64,000 nt of DNA. Origin: an uncultured Bacteroidales bacterium (GTDB taxonomy: Bacteria > Bacteroidota > Bacteroidia > Bacteroidales > UBA932). Position 1 is the first letter of the stretch, and every line of letters begins with the position of its first letter. The DNA is taken from the NCBI GenBank assembly GCA_944326335.1, contig CALVDM010000006.1:35061-99060 (forward strand), given 5' to 3'. Below are positions 2,519 through 12,640 of the stretch, in pieces. The notes under the pieces are model-generated. The model was not told where the DNA came from. It ran no database searches and was given only the letters and a program-made list of their open reading frames with translations. A program made the position numbers and the translations under genes.

Positions 2519-3964
2519 CTATGCGTAATAAGGCACATAAGAGGAATATTTCTTGGAGTCAGGGGCTTTGTCTGAAAGTTTGATCAGACCAGAATCAACG
2601 GTGTCGGATATTATTCTTGAAGCTCCTGCCGAGTTATTCTTGTTCATATCCAGGCGCGATCTCAATGATGCGTTGGTCAACTCCATGCCATTCTCATAGA
2701 GCAGACAGGTATGCTGATAGCAAGCCTGTATCTTATCGGCTTTTGTCATCTCCGTATATTTTATCAATGGAAACAAGCTGGCTCTTGTGAAATATTCACC
2801 CTTTTCTATCCGTATGGCTGGCAGTCTCATTTCTTCCACTCCGGCAACGGCTCTGTCCATACCGCTGCCGCGCTTTTCACACAAGTTGAACAGGAACATT
2901 GACTGGGCGACCTTTTCATTACGGGATTTAGGTGGCATGTCTATGAAGCGGTTGGTATCTATGAGAGGCACTCCTGGATTGGTGATTGTCAGTCTGTTTC
3001 CGAAAATCTCCACGGACAGTGTCATGCCCTGAATGTCGAAGTCTTGGTGAATCAAGGCATTGGCCACCAATTCACGGATGGAAACTTCTGGATAAGGATA
3101 TCTGTTTTCCCGGAACGGAGTACGGATAAACTCTGTCTTTTCCAACAGACTCATGATATGGTCTACAATTTTGTCCAGTGACAGGGCATATCCCTCATGG
3201 AAAAATGTTTCTGACGAGAGATGGAGATTGTTGTTGCCTTTATATTGCCGAACGACTACATTTTTGAAGGCAAGGGAAGGGAAATTTTTGAGGTCTCTTG
3301 CCAGAAGCACGGCACCAAGATTGGTAACAGACCACGCTCCGTCTTCTTTCCGACAGAATCCGTATGCTTCCATTCCTTCAACGATAAGGTCAATGCCGGA
3401 TGGGACAGACTTGTTGATCAGTCTGTAGAATCGGGCGAAGTCCAGCAATGTAATGACTTTTTCGGCTGTGATTCCAGACATGGCGATTCTATCCTCGAAT
3501 GTCTGTCCCTCGGCAGCGGCGAGTATTGCATGGACCTGTGATTTTGACATTTTGTGTGTCTGACCTGCAGACCGATAATAACTGTCATATATCGTCATGG
3601 CGCGAAGATACACAGGTTTGTCCTTTTGCTCCGGGACATGGACAAGCAAGATGCCGGAGCTATCCAATTCTACGGATGTATGCTCTATGCGGATGGGGAT
3701 GTTGAGATTGTTTCTGGCAATATTCCCTATCTTCTTGACAATCTCCTCGGTCTGCTCACGGGATGGCGTGAAAAGAGAAGCGTCGTTATTGACACCGAAT
3801 GCAAATGTGCCTCCCCCTGTCTGGTTTGCAAATGCGGAGATGTGCTGGGCAAGGCGTTCGGACTTTTCAGACAGTCCGCTTTTCCAGTCAAGCTCGTTGA
3901 GTTCTGTCTTGACGGGATATAGGCTGCGGTGTAGATATTTGACAGCTTCTTCTTTCCAATCCAT
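2519..3964 (-). CDS. Schlafen AlbA-2 domain protein with C-terminal ATPase-like domain
   Basis: About 481 aa, cytosolic, no signal peptide. The N-terminal third is an AlbA_2/Schlafen-type domain (ESERLAQHISAFANQTGGG-like segment; 'GGGTFAFGVNND'), followed by a region resembling the GHKL-type ATPase of this family ('ELVANALIHQDF', 'NPGVPL', 'KRGSGMDR') and a C-terminal winged-helix-like part. Such proteins are often annotated as ATP-dependent DNA helicase-related or transcriptional regulators; the role is unproven and some occur in defence or mobile contexts. I start at the ATG opening MDWKEEAV, because a promoter -7 element (TACTTTTG, 3988-3981) overlaps the 13 upstream codons that an ATG at 4003 would add. 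It stands alone between the B12 locus and PUL1. Confidence 0.75.
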   Translation of the reverse strand: MDWKEEAVKYLHRSLYPVKTELNELDWKSGLSEKSERLAQHISAFANQTGGGTFAFGVNNDASLFTPSREQTEEIVKKIGNIARNNLNIPIRIEHTSVELDSSGILLVHVPEQKDKPVYLRAMTIYDSYYRSAGQTHKMSKSQVHAILAAAEGQTFEDRIAMSGITAEKVITLLDFARFYRLINKSVPSGIDLIVEGMEAYGFCRKEDGAWSVTNLGAVLLARDLKNFPSLAFKNVVVRQYKGNNNLHLSSETFFHEGYALSLDKIVDHIMSLLEKTEFIRTPFRENRYPYPEVSIRELVANALIHQDFDIQGMTLSVEIFGNRLTITNPGVPLIDTNRFIDMPPKSRNEKVAQSMFLFNLCEKRGSGMDRAVAGVEEMRLPAIRIEKGEYFTRASLFPLIKYTEMTKADKIQACYQHTCLLYENGMELTNASLRSRLDMNKNNSAGASRIISDTVDSGLIKLSDKAPDSKKYSSYVPYYA

Positions 3965-3980
3965 GGTCAATATGTTTTTG

Positions 3981-3988
3981 CAAAAGTA
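3981..3988 (-). promoter_or_regulatory. Putative -7 promoter element (TACTTTTG)
   Basis: Matches the Bacteroidetes TAnnTTTG box 16 nt upstream of the ATG at 3964. I do not see a good -33 TTG, so support is partial. Confidence 0.4.
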
Positions 3989-4329
3989 ATGATTTGATTT
4001 CATTTATAATAATTTACATACGTTAAGCTGTTTGCCAAGGACATTGTGACAGGCGAAGAGAAGTCGTTCTATTTCAAGGACTTCCTTTTCGATATCGCTG
4101 CTGCCGGCAATGTTTTCACGACACATCAATCTTTAAAACAACCGCATCACATTCGAGGCCGCACTTGTCCCGATATCCGGCCGCGTTTTTTCCTGCAAGG
4201 ATGGCTTAGCGTAAAACGAGACATAAGCTGCGCTTTGTTTCTTGTTGTCAATCAGCGGTTTGGGCGGAAAAAAAAGAATGTGTCGCTGAAAATCAGCCAA
4301 AAAATCAACGGCCGGACACGGCTTTTTTA

Positions 4330-4360
4330 TTGTTAATTCAAATTTATTCATATAACTTTG
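4330..4360 (+). promoter_or_regulatory. Promoter of PUL1
   Basis: TTG at 4330-4332, 20-nt spacer, TAACTTTG at 4353-4360, a near-perfect Bacteroidetes promoter. The expected start of transcription is around 4366, about 33 nt before the ATG at 4399. A perfect 12-bp palindrome (GTGTACGTACAC, 4369-4380) lies just downstream of that point. The rest of 3965-4329 shows no convincing gene; 4019-4129 reads open on the plus strand but I recognise no family. Confidence 0.75.
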
Positions 4361-4398
4361 CGGAGGTTGTGTACGTACACAGCAAAAAACCGCATAAT

Positions 4399-5956
4399 AT
4401 GTCCATCTGTTTCAAAAAATTCATGTCATTGTTCACGGCGGCCATTTTTTCCATGGCTCTGACAAGCTGCGAAGGCTCTGAAAAGGGCGGTGAAAACGGC
4501 TCGGGGGGGGGGTGGACTGCCATCCGATGACGTCTGGAATGTGACCGACGCACAGACTGAACTCTATTCCTGGTCTCCTTCTATTGTCCCTTCCCAGTAT
4601 TATTCCGTAGAGGTAAACGGTGAAAATGCTTTCGTCCTTCCGTGCATTGACAGCCCCGAGGGGTCGCAGCCGGAAGAGGAACATCATGTCTGCACATTCG
4701 GATGTGACGGCGAGGTGCTCGTGGAGATAAACTCCTACAGCGAGAAGATAACAGAGGCCGAGGTGCTGCCCAAGTCCCGCGGCTACAGTTACAGGGTACA
4801 TGACGACGGCGTCCAGGTGATGCTCAAGCCCGGCGACCGCGTGGCAGTGGAGATGAACGGGAACGAGGATGATGTGCTGTTCATCTTCGTGAATCCGCTC
4901 GAGACATCGAAGCCTGCCAGGGACGACGCTTCCGTGACCTATTATGAAGCAGGTACGGTGACCGATGTCGGCACCATGACCATCCCTTCCGGGCAGACGG
5001 TCTATATCGAAGGCGGAGCCATCGTCAAGGGCCGGTTCACCTGTCCTCAGAATGCATCGGACATAAAGATAAAAGGTTACGGCATCCTCGATTCGAGAGG
5101 TGTCGACGGCCGTGCCATCCAGCTCCACAAGGTGTCCGGTCTCGAAATAGACGGTCTCCTCACCCTGAACGACATCAGCTGGACCACATTCATAGCCGAG
5201 GCGGAGGATGTCACCGTGAACAATTACAAGGTGGTGGCGGTACACAATCCGGGAAATACGGCCGGCAACGAGAACGATGCCCTCGACCTTCTCGGATGCC
5301 GCAACGCCAAGGTTACCGGGTGTTTCGGCTATGCCCATGACGACATTTTCTGTGTGAAGTCGCACAAGTGGTCATACAAGGGCGAGGTGGAGAACATCCT
5401 CTTCGAGGACTGTATCGCGTGGAACTTCCGCAGCGGCAACTCTTTCGTGGTGGGCGCCGAGACGAATTATGACGTGACCGGCGTCACGTACAGGAATTGC
5501 GTGAGCATCCACAGCGCCGGCAATCCGTCCGGTACCATGAACAGGGGCGGGTTGAGCGTGCACCATTGTGCCGGAGGCCATGTCTCTGACATCCTTTTCG
5601 AGAACATCACACTCGAAGACTGCAAGGAATACGGCATACACATAGACATCCGCGAGTCATACGTCACGAATCTCGGAAACGACGAGAACAACCAGCCCGT
5701 GGAGTATTCTCCGGGGACGATGGACGGCGTCACGCTGAGGAATATAGATGTCGTCAATACTCCTCCGCAGGGCAATTTCCTGTTCGGTTACGACAACGAC
5801 CACAAAATTCTGGATGTCGTGTTCGACAATGTGCGCATTGCGGGCACCGAGCTCACCGGGGACAATATCAGGACATATTTCGACCCGTCGATGTCCTATT
5901 CCAGGGGAGACCAGCTTTCACACAATCTCGAATTTGTCGAGTATTCATTTGAGTGA
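4399..5956 (+). CDS. GH28/GH49-like beta-helix lipoprotein, out of frame at a 10-G tract
   Basis: The first PUL1 gene. The start at 4399 gives a lipoprotein signal (MSICFKKFMSLF...LTSC) and a Ser/Gly linker; reading then reaches ten G (4503-4512), after which this frame stops at 4530. The other frame, open to 5956, carries the whole mature enzyme: an N-terminal beta-sandwich ('VLFIFVNPLE'), then a right-handed beta-helix with 'NENDALD' and 'HDDIFCVKS', matching the Asp-bearing motifs of GH28-type hydrolases. With nine G the two halves join in frame (about 518 aa). As sequenced the exported enzyme is not made; translation from an internal ATG at 4490 would lack a signal. This is either phase variation by slippage or a sequencing error. 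Substrate unknown: pectin-like polymers or a GH49-like role are both possible. Confidence 0.8.
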
Positions 5957-6021
5957 CATCGTGCCCTAGGGGCATGACACGGGAAAATTTCACATAATCA
6001 AAACACCAACCGGAAATGCTG

Positions 6022-7512
6022 ATGAAATCATTTGCAAAAACTATGTCCGCCCTGGCTGCATTGGCTCTTGCCGCATGCACCTCGTGCGACAGCACAGAGC
6101 CTTCGGGCGGGAACGAAGGGACTTCCTTGCCTGAAGAGTACACCACGGAAGTGGAATACTACAAATTCGACCCTACGGTCAAGGAGTCTTCGATTTACGC
6201 TGTGAAGGCTGCGGGCGAATACATTAAGGTGCTCCCTACGACAGAGCCGCACATGGCATGGCTCGGCGTTGACGAGGGAAAGGCGAAATTCGAGATTTCC
6301 CTGCAGGGGGAAAAGATAGAGTCCGTAGTCGTTAGACCTGTGGCCAAGAATTATGACTACAGGATTGAGGACGGGAAGATAATAATCGGCCTCGGAAAGT
6401 ACGACCGCGTCTCTGTCGAGGTGAACGGCAACATCAAGAATCCGCTTTTCATATTCGTGAATCCGATAGACAGGGAGCGTCCTTCAAAGGACGACCCGTC
6501 GGTGAAGTATTTCGAGGCGGGAAAGATATACGACGCCGGGGACATCGTGCTCTCGAAAGACTGCAAGGAAGTGTATCTGGAACCGGGCACTTATGTGAAG
6601 GGCAACATCCTCGGGGTTGACATCGAAGGTGTCAAAATCCACGGCGGAGGCTTCCTCGAGACCACTGAAACGAATGTGGGCCGCTACAGCGAGTTCTACC
6701 AGCCGTTCTCGATTGCCCTGAACAGATGCCACAACTCCACACTCGAAGACTACACCCATCTGTTCGCCGCCGGGGGATGGTGCTCGCTTTTCACCAACTG
6801 CGACGGAAGCAATATCGTGAATGTCCACACGATAGGCACGGAGACATCTCCGGGGGTGAAGACCAACAACGACTCCATGGACATAATCGGAGGCAAAAAC
6901 GTGCATGTGAAGCACACGTTCCTTCGCGGACATGACGACTGCTATTGCCTCAAGTCCCAGAAATTCAAGCTGAAAGGTGAAGTCGACGGGATTTTCTATG
7001 AAGACTGCATAGGCTGGAACCTCGAGGCCGGCAACACCTTCGAAATCGGCTACGAGACCAACATGGATATAAACAACGTGCAGTACAAGGATGTCTATGC
7101 CATCCACTCCGGGACATCAGGCACGGACATGCGCCGGGCGGCATTCAGCATACACAACGGGGCACGCGGCACTATCTCCAACGTGAAGTACGAGAACGCA
7201 TACGCCGAGGATGTCATGGAGTTCGCCGTCTATCTCGCCGTGCTTTCCCACAGCTACAATATAGGCTATGACGATGAAGGGAACGAGCTGGAGTACGCCC
7301 CCGGACAGATAGAGGGCGTGACATACGACAACCTCAATGTGCTTGCTGTCCGGGACGGAAAGGGATATTGTGTCATAGACGGTTACGATGACGGACATAC
7401 TGTTTCTGACGTGACCTTCAAAGGCTTCAATTATCTCGGCAGAAAGGTGACTTCGCTCGATGACAGCATCTGGAGCATAAAGGAACACCACTCGGACATA
7501 ACTTTCAACTGA
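6022..7512 (+). CDS. GH28/GH49-like beta-helix lipoprotein (intact paralogue)
   Basis: About 496 aa. Signal peptide with lipobox (LAAC, about residue 16), N-terminal beta-sandwich ('NPLFIFVNPID'), then a beta-helix with 'NNDSMDI' and 'HDDCYCLKS', the positions that hold catalytic Asp residues in GH28. Clearly paralogous to the preceding gene across its length, but without a G tract in its linker. ATGs at 6016 and 6022 are both possible. It is the second gene of PUL1, 40 nt before susC. The family acts on uronate-containing or other polysaccharides by inverting hydrolysis; the exact substrate cannot be read from sequence. Confidence 0.8.
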   Translation: MKSFAKTMSALAALALAACTSCDSTEPSGGNEGTSLPEEYTTEVEYYKFDPTVKESSIYAVKAAGEYIKVLPTTEPHMAWLGVDEGKAKFEISLQGEKIESVVVRPVAKNYDYRIEDGKIIIGLGKYDRVSVEVNGNIKNPLFIFVNPIDRERPSKDDPSVKYFEAGKIYDAGDIVLSKDCKEVYLEPGTYVKGNILGVDIEGVKIHGGGFLETTETNVGRYSEFYQPFSIALNRCHNSTLEDYTHLFAAGGWCSLFTNCDGSNIVNVHTIGTETSPGVKTNNDSMDIIGGKNVHVKHTFLRGHDDCYCLKSQKFKLKGEVDGIFYEDCIGWNLEAGNTFEIGYETNMDINNVQYKDVYAIHSGTSGTDMRRAAFSIHNGARGTISNVKYENAYAEDVMEFAVYLAVLSHSYNIGYDDEGNELEYAPGQIEGVTYDNLNVLAVRDGKGYCVIDGYDDGHTVSDVTFKGFNYLGRKVTSLDDSIWSIKEHHSDITFN

Positions 7513-7552: not shown

Positions 7553-10500
7553 ATGAACATTTTCTTCAGAATGATGTTGTCGGCAGTCCTGATGCTGTCC
7601 GCCGTAACGGCATTCGCGCAGGATGTCGTCACGGGAACCGTGACTGACGACAACGGAGAGCCGCTGATAGGTGCCGGAGTGACATACAAGGGCACTACAG
7701 TCGGTGTGGTCACTGACCTTGACGGCAGATACAGCATCAAGAGAATGCCGGGCGAGACACTGCAGTTTTCGTCTATCGGAATGACAAGCAAGGAGGTGCA
7801 GGTGTCTGACCAGAAGGAAATCAACGTCCGCCTCGAGACGGACAATCTGGTGCTCGAGGATGCCGTGGTCATCGGCTACGGCACGCTTTCGAGGTCTGAC
7901 CTCACGGGTTCCGTGAGCTCATTCAAGTCCGAGGAACTCGCCAAGACAGGAAGCAGCAATGTCGTGGGCGCGTTGCAGGGACATGTGGCCGGACTGAACA
8001 TCACTTCGCAGTCCGGTGAGCCGGGAGCCGGATTCAACATCAAAATCAGGGGAAACAACTCCATCAACGCCGGCACCACGCCTCTGTTCGTGATAGACGG
8101 CATGCAGATGGACATATCCTCTGGCGAGATTGCCACCACAACCTCCACCGGTTCCGGCACATTCGACCCGATGTCCTTCATAAACCCGAACGACATCGAG
8201 TCCATAGAGGTGCTGAAGGATGCCACGGCGACAGCCATCTACGGAGCCCGCGGAGCGAACGGTGTCATAATCATCACCACCAAGAGCGGCCTTTCTGGAG
8301 CCGACAGGACAGTGGTCAACTTCAGCGCCTCGGTCGGTATCTCCAACGTGCCGAAATACATCCAGATGCTCAATCCGCAGGAATATGTGGACTACCGTTT
8401 CAGCAGGAGGGACTACGGATGGTCCGGATACGGTGTTGACACCAACGGAGACGGAGAGGCGGACACTCCTATGGATGCGAGCGGCATGGAATATTTCGAC
8501 TGGCAGAAGCTCCTGTACAGGACGGCTGTGACCCAGGACTACAACCTCTCGGTGAACGCTGTGGCAAGCAAGAAGACACAGCTGCTGGTAAGCCTCGGCT
8601 ACCTGAACCAGGACGGTCTCGTGGTGAACAACGACTACCAGAGGTACACGGGGCGCATCAAGCTGGACCATAGCATCAGCGACAAGGTGAAGATAGGAGC
8701 TTCCGTGAACTACGGCCGCACGATTTCCAACGGAGCAGTGTCTTCCGGTGGTGGAGAACTCGGCTACAGCGGTCTGATACAGCTCATCTATCTGCGCAGG
8801 CCGGTCGATTTCTACACAGAGGGAGATTCTCAGGACAACATGGGTTCCTATTCCCTTCTGGACTGCGTCACTGACGAGACATACAGGAAGACCGTCTATT
8901 CCCGTGTGGCAGGAAACGCCTACCTTGACTGGAAAATCATAGATGACCTCACTTTCCGCGCCCAGATTTCGGGAAACACATCCAATTCCAAAGGCATGGA
9001 GTTCTACAGCAAGGAGAGTATGTGGGGATATTCCAAGAACGGTTACGGAAGAATCAAGACCGTGGACACATACGGCTGGAACGCTTCCGCGACCCTCACC
9101 TACAACAAGACTTTCAAGGAGAAGCATAATCTTAGCGCCATGCTCGGCGTGGAGATGAACGCATATTCCAGCGAGAATCTCACCATAGGCGCATACGACT
9201 TCACGGATGCATCCACAGGGGTGTTCGACATCAGCAAGGGAGGTATCCAGGAAGCTCCGGTGGAGAGCATAGGCATGAGCACGATGATGTCAATGTTCGG
9301 CCGTGCCGAATACAACTACGACCAGCGTTACTACATATCGTTCAACATGCGTGCTGACGGTTCATCCAAGTTCATGCCGGGCAGCAGGGTCGGCTACTTC
9401 CCGTCCGTGGCCCTTGCATGGAGGCTCTCGGAGGAACCGTTCATGGAGAGCGCAGGGTGGCTCGACCAGTTCAAACTCAGGTTCAGCGTCGGAGCTTCCG
9501 GCAACGACCGTATCTCCAACTATGCCACGATGGCCCTCATGACCACCAACTACTACGCCATCAACGGTACGGAGGTCATGGGTATGGCACCGTCCAGCTC
9601 GGCCAATTCCAACCTCAAGTGGGAGACCACATACCAGTACGACCTCGGCTTCGACTTCAGCGTCCTGAACAACAGGATAAACCTCATGGCCGACATCTAC
9701 TACAAGGACACCCGCGACATGCTCTACCGTGCCACCCTTCCTGCCCAGACCGGATATGTGGAGCAGTGGCAGAATCTCGGGCGTGTGGAGAACAAGGGTA
9801 TAGAGGTGAGCCTCAACACCTACAACATCCAGACGCGCAACTTCTCGTGGGCCACGAACGTGACATTCGACCTCTCCCGCAACAAGGTGCTCGACATCGG
9901 AGGCATCGAATACACGAGCGTGAACATCTCCCACGGCCAGCTCTCCAACGACATTTCGCGTATCATGGTGGGCCAGCCGATCGGTATCGGCTACGGTTAT
10001 GTGGCTGACGGGAACTACCAGCTCACGGACTTCGTGGCAATCGACAAGGTCGGCAACAGGTTCGAGCATCCTGAGGAGATTGTGACAAGCGACAACATAG
10101 ACAACTACGACTTCGAGCTGAAGCCGGGTGTGGTGAAGATAAACTCCGTGACCCCTCAGCCGGGAGACCGCAAATACAAGGACTTCGACGGAGACAACGA
10201 AGTGACCACGGCGGACCGCCAGGTGATAAGCGATTCCAACCCTGACTTCACGATGGGATTCGGCAATACGTTCACATACAAGAATTTCGAGCTTACCCTC
10301 TTCTTCGAGGGCGTCTACGGAAGGGATATCATGAACGAGTTCAAGCTCCGCTCCGAGTCCGGACAGTCGGGAGGAACGCAGTACAACAACCTCCGCGCAG
10401 AGGCATGGCACGGACGCTGGACTCCGGAGAATTCGTCCAACACTTATTCGAGGCTGCTGAACCAGACCAATTCCTGGACATCCTCGTACTATGTGGAGGA

Positions 10501-10741
10501 CGGCAGCTACATCAGGTTCAAGACTCTCTCGTTTGCATATACGTTTGCAGGGGAGAAGCTTAAGAAGGCAGGGTTCTCTTCCATAAAGCTCAGCCTCAAT
10601 GCCGACAACCTGTTCGTATGGACAAAGTACAGCGGCATGGACCCGGATGTCAGCTCATCGAACGCCCTGTTCACCGGATTCGACAGACTGTCCTATCCTA
10701 AGGCAAGGTCCTTCACATTCGGGGTCAACCTGTCATTCTGA
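7553..10741 (+). CDS. susC: SusC/RagA-type TonB-linked outer-membrane transporter (PUL1)
   Basis: 1062 aa. Sec signal peptide ending near FAQD, a carboxypeptidase-regulatory-like domain (residues about 22-100, 'GTVTDDNGEPLIGAGV'), a plug with the family's 'VVIGYGT', 'SGEPGAGFNIKIRGNNSIN' and 'TAIYGARGANGVI' signatures, and a large barrel ending in Phe. With the SusD that follows it would import oligosaccharides across the outer membrane. It lies 40 nt after the second GH28-like gene and 9 nt before SusD. It is paralogous to the PUL2 SusC at 40771. Confidence 0.95.
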   Translation: MNIFFRMMLSAVLMLSAVTAFAQDVVTGTVTDDNGEPLIGAGVTYKGTTVGVVTDLDGRYSIKRMPGETLQFSSIGMTSKEVQVSDQKEINVRLETDNLVLEDAVVIGYGTLSRSDLTGSVSSFKSEELAKTGSSNVVGALQGHVAGLNITSQSGEPGAGFNIKIRGNNSINAGTTPLFVIDGMQMDISSGEIATTTSTGSGTFDPMSFINPNDIESIEVLKDATATAIYGARGANGVIIITTKSGLSGADRTVVNFSASVGISNVPKYIQMLNPQEYVDYRFSRRDYGWSGYGVDTNGDGEADTPMDASGMEYFDWQKLLYRTAVTQDYNLSVNAVASKKTQLLVSLGYLNQDGLVVNNDYQRYTGRIKLDHSISDKVKIGASVNYGRTISNGAVSSGGGELGYSGLIQLIYLRRPVDFYTEGDSQDNMGSYSLLDCVTDETYRKTVYSRVAGNAYLDWKIIDDLTFRAQISGNTSNSKGMEFYSKESMWGYSKNGYGRIKTVDTYGWNASATLTYNKTFKEKHNLSAMLGVEMNAYSSENLTIGAYDFTDASTGVFDISKGGIQEAPVESIGMSTMMSMFGRAEYNYDQRYYISFNMRADGSSKFMPGSRVGYFPSVALAWRLSEEPFMESAGWLDQFKLRFSVGASGNDRISNYATMALMTTNYYAINGTEVMGMAPSSSANSNLKWETTYQYDLGFDFSVLNNRINLMADIYYKDTRDMLYRATLPAQTGYVEQWQNLGRVENKGIEVSLNTYNIQTRNFSWATNVTFDLSRNKVLDIGGIEYTSVNISHGQLSNDISRIMVGQPIGIGYGYVADGNYQLTDFVAIDKVGNRFEHPEEIVTSDNIDNYDFELKPGVVKINSVTPQPGDRKYKDFDGDNEVTTADRQVISDSNPDFTMGFGNTFTYKNFELTLFFEGVYGRDIMNEFKLRSESGQSGGTQYNNLRAEAWHGRWTPENSSNTYSRLLNQTNSWTSSYYVEDGSYIRFKTLSFAYTFAGEKLKKAGFSSIKLSLNADNLFVWTKYSGMDPDVSSSNALFTGFDRLSYPKARSFTFGVNLSF

Positions 10742-10750
10742 GAATAGTTG

Positions 10751-12640
10751 ATGAAATCCAAACATTATTGCAGCACAATGAGAAAGACATTGACATACAT
10801 ATTATCAATCGCTGTCGCAGGGGCTTCCGCAATCTCATGCGAGAACGCAAAGTTCCTCGACCAGTACCCGTACTCGCAGACCTCGCCCGAGAACTTCTTC
10901 GATTCGGAGAACTCCATCTACATGGGACTTGTCTCGTGTTACGAGATAATCAACGGGCACAAGATACCGGGGGCGAGCTATGTGCAGAGGGGAAGCTACG
11001 GACAGGGCCTGCTGTACGTGATGAACAGCCCTTCCGACGACATGGTGGCTGCCACATCCTCGTCCGATGAAGGTCTCGAGATGATGTGGGGCAACTACAA
11101 CGAGAGCACAAGGTGCGTGCGCGACACATGGAAGGTGATGTACACCGGCATCAACAGATGCAACACCATCCTGCACTACATCGACAGGGTGGACATGGAC
11201 GAAGCCACCAGGACCCAGTACATAGCCGAGACACGTTTCCTGAGGGCCTTCTTCTACTACCATCTTGCATGGAACTTCGGAGGAGTGCCTATAGTCGAGG
11301 CATACGACTCGGACGGCCAGGAGCCGCGCTCATCCCTCAAGGATGTCTATGACCATATATTCGCGGACCTTGACTTCGCATACCAGAACCTCAACACGAC
11401 AGGCATCCTCCAGACATCCTCTGCCAACAAGTACACGGCGGCCGCCTACACGGCCCGCATCTGCAACTATCTTGCGGCCTGCAAGAATAACAACGTGGGA
11501 GCGGAACTTGTCGCCGAGCAGCCCCTGAACGATTTTTCGTTCGTGGATGCCGATGCCATGTACAAGAAGTCCAAACTGGCCTGCGAAGACATAATCAACA
11601 ATTCATCGTATAAGCTGATTCCGGACTACACCAACCTTTTCCGCGAGACCACAAAGACACAGCAGTACCAGGAATGCCTCCTTCTCGCCGAGCAGCCGCT
11701 GTCCGGGTCGGAAGGATACTGGCCGAACAGCTACTATCTGCCTTCTCCGACATGCAATACCGATTCTCCGACAGTTTACGGAGGACGTTTCGTGCCTACT
11801 CCGAGGGCGTTCTACATGTACAGCCCTAAAGACCCGAGGCGCGACCACAACTTCACCGGAAGGCTGCAGGATTTGCACAAGGACGGTACTCCGGGAAAGA
11901 TAGAGGTGACTGTGGACGGCTATACATACTACAATCCGGACCCGCCTCGCACTGAAATCACCGTGAAGGACGAACACGGCGAGGACGTGCTCGGACCTGA
12001 CGGACAGCCGCTGAAAGAGGACCATCCGCTCTATGACAGCGAGACCCAGACATACATGCCTATCGCCGGAATCCAGCTTTGTGCCGGGAAGTTCAGGCTC
12101 TGCAAGATAGACCAGCTCCAGAGGACATATCAGCAGCATGCCCTGTCCTATCCGCTCATCCGCCTTGCAGACGTGTATCTCATGTATGCCGAGGCTCTTG
12201 CCTTCGGTCAGGACAAGAATGAGGCTTTGGCCCGTGCCCAGCTCAGGACTGTGCTTTTGAGGGCGGTCAACAACAACGAGACCCTCTGCGACGAGCTCAT
12301 GACATACTATCACAGGGATAATTTTCTCGACGAACTTCTCGAAAGCCGCGAGAGGGAGCTTATATTCGAGTTCTCCCGCAAATGGGACCTCATCCGTTTC
12401 AATCTCATGGACGAGAAGATATCCAGCCTCAGTGAAGATATGGTCGTGGAGAAACTTGTCGAGGACACCGAGTCTCCTGACTATATCAACCCTGACTACC
12501 TGAAATTCCAGTCCGACGGCTACCTGAAACTCGGTATCCCTACCATAAAGCAGAACTGGCAGCCTCACAAGATATGGCTTCCGATATCCGAGGAGCAGAT
12601 AGGCGTGAACAAGAAGCTCACCCAGAATGCCGGCTGGTGA
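10751..12640 (+). CDS. susD: SusD/RagB-type glycan-binding lipoprotein (PUL1)
   Basis: About 629 aa lipoprotein (signal 'LSIAVAGASAISC'). The TPR-rich SusD fold is visible: 'YTGINRCNTIL', 'AETRFLRAFFYYHLAWNFGGVPI', 'YPLIRLADVYLMYAEAL' and a C-terminal 'SRERELIFEFSRKWDLIRF' region, ending with 'PHKIWLPISEEQI'. It caps the SusC barrel and presents glycan. An ATG at 10778 would give a tighter signal peptide and may be the real start. A 14-bp stem-loop begins 2 nt after the stop. Confidence 0.95.
   Translation: MKSKHYCSTMRKTLTYILSIAVAGASAISCENAKFLDQYPYSQTSPENFFDSENSIYMGLVSCYEIINGHKIPGASYVQRGSYGQGLLYVMNSPSDDMVAATSSSDEGLEMMWGNYNESTRCVRDTWKVMYTGINRCNTILHYIDRVDMDEATRTQYIAETRFLRAFFYYHLAWNFGGVPIVEAYDSDGQEPRSSLKDVYDHIFADLDFAYQNLNTTGILQTSSANKYTAAAYTARICNYLAACKNNNVGAELVAEQPLNDFSFVDADAMYKKSKLACEDIINNSSYKLIPDYTNLFRETTKTQQYQECLLLAEQPLSGSEGYWPNSYYLPSPTCNTDSPTVYGGRFVPTPRAFYMYSPKDPRRDHNFTGRLQDLHKDGTPGKIEVTVDGYTYYNPDPPRTEITVKDEHGEDVLGPDGQPLKEDHPLYDSETQTYMPIAGIQLCAGKFRLCKIDQLQRTYQQHALSYPLIRLADVYLMYAEALAFGQDKNEALARAQLRTVLLRAVNNNETLCDELMTYYHRDNFLDELLESRERELIFEFSRKWDLIRFNLMDEKISSLSEDMVVEKLVEDTESPDYINPDYLKFQSDGYLKLGIPTIKQNWQPHKIWLPISEEQIGVNKKLTQNAGW

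Follow-up and report, generated by a model that had tools for sequence, protein, structure and literature searches.

A poly-G tract behind the lipoprotein signal of a GH28 gene as a probable slipped-strand phase-variation switch in a Bacteroidales PUL

The window, a stretch of 64,000 nucleotides from an uncultured Bacteroidales bacterium, carries a gene cluster in which a SusC/SusD pair adjoins glycoside hydrolases, the arrangement by which a PUL is recognized. The first enzyme gene of this cluster is divided in the assembly by a run of G that separates its export signal from its catalytic frame. The features discussed below are as follows.

4330 to 4360, plus strand: promoter-like site of the Bacteroidota type by motif reading, composed of TTG (4330-4332) and TAACTTTG (4353-4360), an instance of TAnnTTTG, which we take to be the Bacteroidota promoter consensus.
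4367 to 4381, plus strand: palindrome TTGTGTACGTACACA, a putative operator near the transcription start, recognized through the conserved motif TTGTGYAYGTRCACA.
4399 to 4470, plus strand: lipoprotein signal peptide with lipobox Cys24 (codon 4468-4470), read from the translation and at a similar position in orthologues.
4399 to 4530, plus strand: short off-state frame of 43 codons plus a stop at 4528-4530, translated as MSICFKKFMSLFTAAIFSMALTSCEGSEKGGENGSGGGWTAIR.
4490 to 4492, plus strand: GTG in the enzyme frame, a possible start of an unexported form by ORF reading.
4503 to 4512, plus strand: run of ten G (G10; site A) at which slippage is proposed, from the sequence and orthologue comparison.
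4514 to 5956, plus strand: GH28 enzyme frame (GH28a) of 480 codons ending in TGA (5954-5956), which the assembly places in a different frame from the signal, from its ORF and Pfam match.
6016 to 7512, plus strand: GH28b lipoprotein, a paralogue without the tract (Pfam GH28, 25 bits, cut-off 22.9).
7553 to 10741, plus strand: SusC-like TonB-dependent receptor, by domain match.
10748 to 12640, plus strand: SusD-like lipoprotein, by domain match.

The run at 4503-4512 consists of exactly ten G, flanked by TC on the 5' side and TGGACTGCC on the 3' side, and translation of 4399-4530 places a Gly/Ser/Glu linker between Cys24 and the tract. The initial annotation had described ten G behind a lipoprotein signal and linker, with the frame from the ATG at 4399 stopping at 4530, and this description holds. 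Codon arithmetic bears out its further statement that nine G, or any number n of G with n ≡ 0 mod 3, fuses the signal to the GH28 frame, and the neighbouring GH28 paralogue has, as stated there, no G run in its linker. The ORF at 4490-5953 matches Pfam PF00295 (Glyco_hydro_28; E 7e-11, 42.2 bits against a cut-off of 22.9), and by this cut-off the product of the tract gene belongs to GH28, the polygalacturonase family, with a predicted activity on pectic substrates; a search of PDB chains by sequence at E 0.001 returned no match to the enzyme.

The GTG at 4490 raises the possibility of a localisation switch, in which the G10 state would yield an unexported enzyme. This candidate was rejected because the start is not conserved: no ATG, GTG or TTG lies near the tract in L032 and L179, two other species in which the gene is off.

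Under a null model of dinucleotide shuffles the run is unremarkable, since about 3.4 G8 words are expected per window and 3 were found. The spectrum of G/C runs in the window comprises 270 of length four and 38 of length five; lengths six to nine are absent, and a single run reaches ten. Extrapolation of the four-to-five ratio gives 0.002 expected runs of ten or more. Because GGG accounts for 21% of the Gly codons in the window's long frames and synonymous sites are near saturation among copies of the gene, an all-GGG stretch would not be expected to persist by neglect. The whole genome (2.34 Mb in 61 contigs, 89.67% complete) contains 12 G/C runs of at least nine, three of them of length 10; inspected by eye, two of them, the window tract and that of locus L004, break the frame within or after an export signal, and most of the others are in frame or intergenic. 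A G9 at L011 (G000:C30:312) lies in frame near the N-terminus of what by eye looks like an ECF sigma factor.

Orthologues of the tract gene were sought in a GTDB-based contig collection and in three overlapping draws of whole genomes from relatives and from the genus (41, 300 and 400 genomes). The initial annotation had proposed that tract lengths be counted in related genomes; counted in this way, nine species have 6-11 G in the front part of the gene, and in six of them the frame is broken, each length being one assembly consensus per species and the comparison one across species. Within the linker (site A), the gene is off in the window (G10), L032 (G9) and L179 (G11), and on in L034 (G9), L033 (G6) and L035 (G8); L178, L177, L042 and L043 are repeat fetches of L032, L033, L034 and L035, respectively. 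In three further species the tract lies at a second position, some 66-68 codons past the Cys (site B), with G10 in L036 (L036:3165), G8 in L037 (L037:3168) and G9 in L039 (L039:3162). Here the signal frame stops at most 4 codons past the tract in each species, and since all three copies are off, no on state was seen at site B. A non-repetitive linker carrying the same frameshift had been named as the mark of a plain pseudogene. The linkers of these three species are indeed non-repetitive, but the frameshift in them is due to another, downstream poly-G, which favours the switch reading. Sister clades carry their tracts at different places in the gene, which suggests that switching as such has been selected for. 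Together the nine species with a tract make up one clade of nine rows (support 100/99), and sister pairs on the tree differ in state (L034 on, L179 off; L033 on, L032 off). Six off copies in nine is the share expected from random lengths (2/3).

Eleven more distant homologues of the same gene (L038, L040, L044-L047 and L049-L053) have no G/C run of at least six in the front of the gene, although two of them have a G6 some 290-330 codons in, and all eleven are in frame, their signals being read by eye; L054, with a further copy fused to an upstream gene, was left out. The contrast between 6/9 off with a tract and 0/11 off without one has a probability of 0.0022 by counting, with relatedness ignored. 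Past the tract, the six site-A species have an open enzyme frame of 445-481 codons and the three site-B species one of 382-383 codons in another phase, and no further stop was found in the enzyme frame of the off species. Among site-A copies dN/dS is 0.06-0.17 where computable, at dS values of 1.7-3.3 that are near saturation; between off copies it is 0.063 (window and L032) and 0.109 (window and L179). The gene has several of the properties by which contingency loci are recognized: the repeat lies inside an open frame, a change in its length alters frame and product, the gene is otherwise intact when off, and tract length differs between relatives, here nine species rather than strains. The locus was not found in G383, a genome 87% complete whose copy of the L004 gene is 96.5% identical in DNA sequence.

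Recurrence of such tracts in the genus was surveyed in two overlapping draws, of 121 genomes for runs of at least ten G and of 61 genomes for runs of at least nine, which gave 166 tracts among the matches listed, 162 of them unique. Two requirements defined the signal-peptide class: the tract had to lie in the hydrophobic core of an N-terminal signal or no more than 15 residues beyond it, and at least 150 open codons had to follow. Tracts near contig starts were left out (among them G114:C38, G018:C57, G109:C135, G158:C74, G135:C10 and C30, G122:C72, G124:C82, and G125:C51 and C73), as were G005:C90 and G048:C16, which had been taken as hand-picked loci, and a few others; in the draw for at least nine, entries after G003 were left out except for automatic loci, some of which lie near contig ends. 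The window gene stands outside the counts, because the automatic rule misses it (a distance of 18 against the limit of 15, and 63 open codons before the ATG), and so do the examples L163-L176, which came from a CTGC-anchored search.

Eleven of the 162 sampled G/C tracts of at least nine, among the matches listed, lie in or just behind a signal peptide, six on and five off, one of the five (L256) looking doubtful. Random positions in the same loci give expectations of 2.2 in total and 0.3 off, with p 1.6e-5 for each and 3e-5 and 7e-5 in a rerun; the tight rule was set after the loose result, so that these p values are not independent of that choice, and limits of 8, 15 and 25 agree. The looser first test of signal peptides had shown no overall excess (5/76, p 0.17) and an excess of off cases (3, p 0.002). 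Interior coding tracts are scarce: 8 intact and 2 broken ones among the 162, as against 44% of random positions. The remaining 141 of the 162 fall in neither class. Elsewhere in Bacteroidales, none of 30 tracts taken from a longer order-wide list is a signal-peptide tract, a result that says little because only about 0.5 would be expected. Very long G runs at the contig starts of G199:C81 and G018:C57 are probably sequencing artefacts and call for caution in counting tracts. The same 24 bases followed by G9 occur near contig ends in G084:C57:23421 and G119:C32:6 and are perhaps part of a repeated or mobile element.

We interpret the tract as a slipped-strand phase-variation switch of an exported PUL enzyme and consider this reading probable; the signal-peptide tracts of the genus sample and the receptor family described below speak for it as well. 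Polymerase slippage at replication would change the number of G. Whenever this number is a multiple of three, the signal would be joined to the GH28 frame and a lipidated, exported enzyme would be made; at other lengths translation would end at most 18 bases past the tract and yield only the 43-codon peptide. The rate of slippage, its reversibility, the coexistence of several lengths in one population and the display of the enzyme at the surface are what we infer from this arrangement.

Two readings do without a switch. If the consensus were wrong and the true tract in frame, the gene would simply be on, and the lengths do rest on assembly consensus over G runs of 9-11, which are prone to error; indeed, deposited G-tract lengths can be wrong, as the accessible text of PMC9187656 notes. 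Such an error would have to account for six off species with lengths of 8, 9, 9, 10, 10 and 11 at two sites, and for interior coding tracts being intact in 8/10 cases when signal-peptide tracts are off in 5/11 (small numbers), and a conserved poly-G would remain even if some lengths were mistaken; we regard this explanation as unlikely. Alternatively, the enzyme might have been lost irreversibly by a frameshift at a weak spot. That the gene is off in the assembly and in all three site-B relatives, and that GH28b may make it dispensable, would suit a plain pseudogene, but the enzyme frames of the off species have no other stop, dN/dS between off copies is low, promoter motif and palindrome are conserved and sister species differ in state, which together leave this account very unlikely. 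The slippage switch put forward in the initial annotation is thus favoured over both by the nine poly-G species, six of them off, set against the eleven run-less homologues that are all in frame, although a further part of that proposal, concerning the rest of the PUL, is not supported (see below).

Homopolymers can also cause transcriptional slippage and ribosomal frameshifting, and the G run might in this way permit a constant low expression with no heritable switch. Selection on the off copies would then be explained; such a mechanism, however, needs no length variation, and on-lengths are common at site A (3/6), so that we give it little credence. Least probable of all is that promoter inversion, the usual switch of Bacteroides, also acts here. 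It is common in that genus according to the consulted parts of PMC12632263 and PMC11868660, but a search of 3900-4600 gave a single weak inverted pair (11 nt, 91%, arms 376 nt apart). The slipped-strand switch remains our preferred reading.

The position of the tract gene within the cluster bears on what its off state would entail. On the plus strand between 3900 and 13000, TAnnTTTG occurs just upstream of the tract gene and at one other place, inside susC; given this distribution and the gene order, the tract gene is probably the first cistron of GH28a-GH28b-SusC-SusD in the window, as judged from sequence. The order GH28a-GH28b-SusC is kept in the window, L032, L033, L035, L036, L037 and L039, and L034 and L040 have GH28a followed by SusC. 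The motif TTGTGYAYGTRCACA lies upstream of the gene in five of five species (window, L032, L033, L034 and L179), 5-11 nt downstream of TAnnTTTG, and with at most 2 mismatches the palindrome has a single site in the window if its reverse-strand reading is not counted. The two elements together are likely to form an operator, still putative, for some regulator of the PUL. Within the 600 bases checked, the palindrome was not found in L035, L036, L037, L039 and L040, of which L040 has a lone TAnnTTTG; in L035, L036, L037 and L039 promoter and palindrome are both missing, so that the gene there is probably not the first.

An early stop at the tract leaves about 1.5 kb of untranslated message before GH28b. 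The initial annotation had the enzyme switched without touching the rest of the PUL. We do not follow this claim: the tract gene looks first in its operon and stops early, an arrangement for which polarity has been argued in Bifidobacterium breve, and the off state may also dampen GH28b-SusC-SusD by polarity. A stronger version, compatible with the slippage switch as an addition to it, is that the tract gates GH28b-SusC-SusD and hence the whole PUL. In its favour are the lone TAnnTTTG outside susC, just upstream of the tract gene, and the similar argument made for the B. breve pilus operons in the available text of PMC9187656; against it, promoter and palindrome are missing in the four species named above, reinitiation at GH28b is possible, and polarity is read from the layout of the sequence. 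We consider whole-PUL gating possible but rather doubtful.

Outside this phylum, poly-G phase variation is a classical phenomenon. The contingency loci of Neisseria, Campylobacter and Helicobacter, as far as the literature consulted describes them, likewise switch by frameshifts in poly-G or other homopolymers. The closest parallel is offered by the sortase-pilus switches bbr_0113 and bbr_1889 of the gut commensal B. breve, where, in the portions available of PMC9187656, an intragenic tract of G9-G12 in the first gene of a surface operon fuses two frames according to its length, equivalents occur in the genus and the authors argue for polarity. Those genes encode pili in another phylum and their mixed lengths were measured (PMC9187656), whereas the window gene is a Bacteroidales PUL enzyme with the tract behind the lipobox and a length read from an assembly consensus. 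Slipped-strand mispairing in the Gardnerella sialidase NanH3, named in PMC11868660 and in the reference list of PMC10187134, also concerns a glycan-cutting enzyme, again in another phylum, and the 5' poly-A of Listeria inlA (PMC2831843, available sections) is likewise a homopolymer at the 5' end of a gene whose frameshift gives a very short product, but it is a run of A; the 5'-end bias described there holds for poly-A and poly-T. Within Bacteroidales, reviews name DNA inversion as the form of phase variation, and inversion in Bacteroides, too, turns PULs and surface proteins on and off but is driven by invertases (PMC12632263 and PMC11868660, in the parts available); a word search of the main text of PMC12632263 found neither 'slipped' nor 'homopolymer'. 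Among the papers listed by searches of the open PMC literature, none was seen to report a homopolymer switch for a PUL of Bacteroidales. Poly-G switching itself is known, and within that literature a Bacteroidales PUL enzyme with the tract behind its export signal is a new setting. A homopolymer switch at the joint between export signal and enzyme, if true, would be a second way, without a recombinase, for cells to come to differ in glycan use and surface exposure.

Other genes of the genus carry comparable tracts. In a TonB receptor with matches to Plug, carboxypeptidase-regulatory-like and STN-like domains, the tract lies straight after the signal and is G10 and on in one species (L163/L307), G8 and off in a second (L308, 83%) and G11 and off in a third (L164/L309, 81%); two of these three species were hand-picked from the CTGC-anchored search and L308 came from a separate search. 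Among distant relatives of this receptor, L310 (68%) has no tract behind the signal and a G8 upstream of the gene, and L311 (65%) has none. In the genome of the window, L004 (G000:C3:39738, minus strand) has an off-frame G9 in the signal peptide followed by a 665-codon frame of the BACON/BspA-type LRR kind, and its copy in G383 (L313; L004 is L312 in that comparison), 96.5% identical, has a shorter run (G8) and is also off. BACON domains occur in three of the genes hit (L004, L159 and L221), L128 matches a metallo-beta-lactamase fold, and several further tract genes resemble SusC-like receptors by mutual BLAST. We suggest, tentatively and at somewhat less than even confidence, that the genus carries dispersed poly-G switches in or just behind the signals that export SusC-like receptors, BACON/LRR lipoproteins and PUL enzymes. 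Each would gate the export of its own gene product and, if that gene comes first, the whole PUL; the set would form a slippage counterpart of the Bacteroides inversions, the tract having arisen anew at different places in the same gene.

Two minor observations concern tracts elsewhere. In the SusC-like receptor L153 a G10 lies further in, within the regulatory-like domain, and the signal frame stops at the tract, an arrangement that resembles site B of the GH28 gene. Of the 162 tracts, 71 touch no open frame of 100 codons (in the ranges L087-L162 and L183-L272), and some of these may act in promoters.
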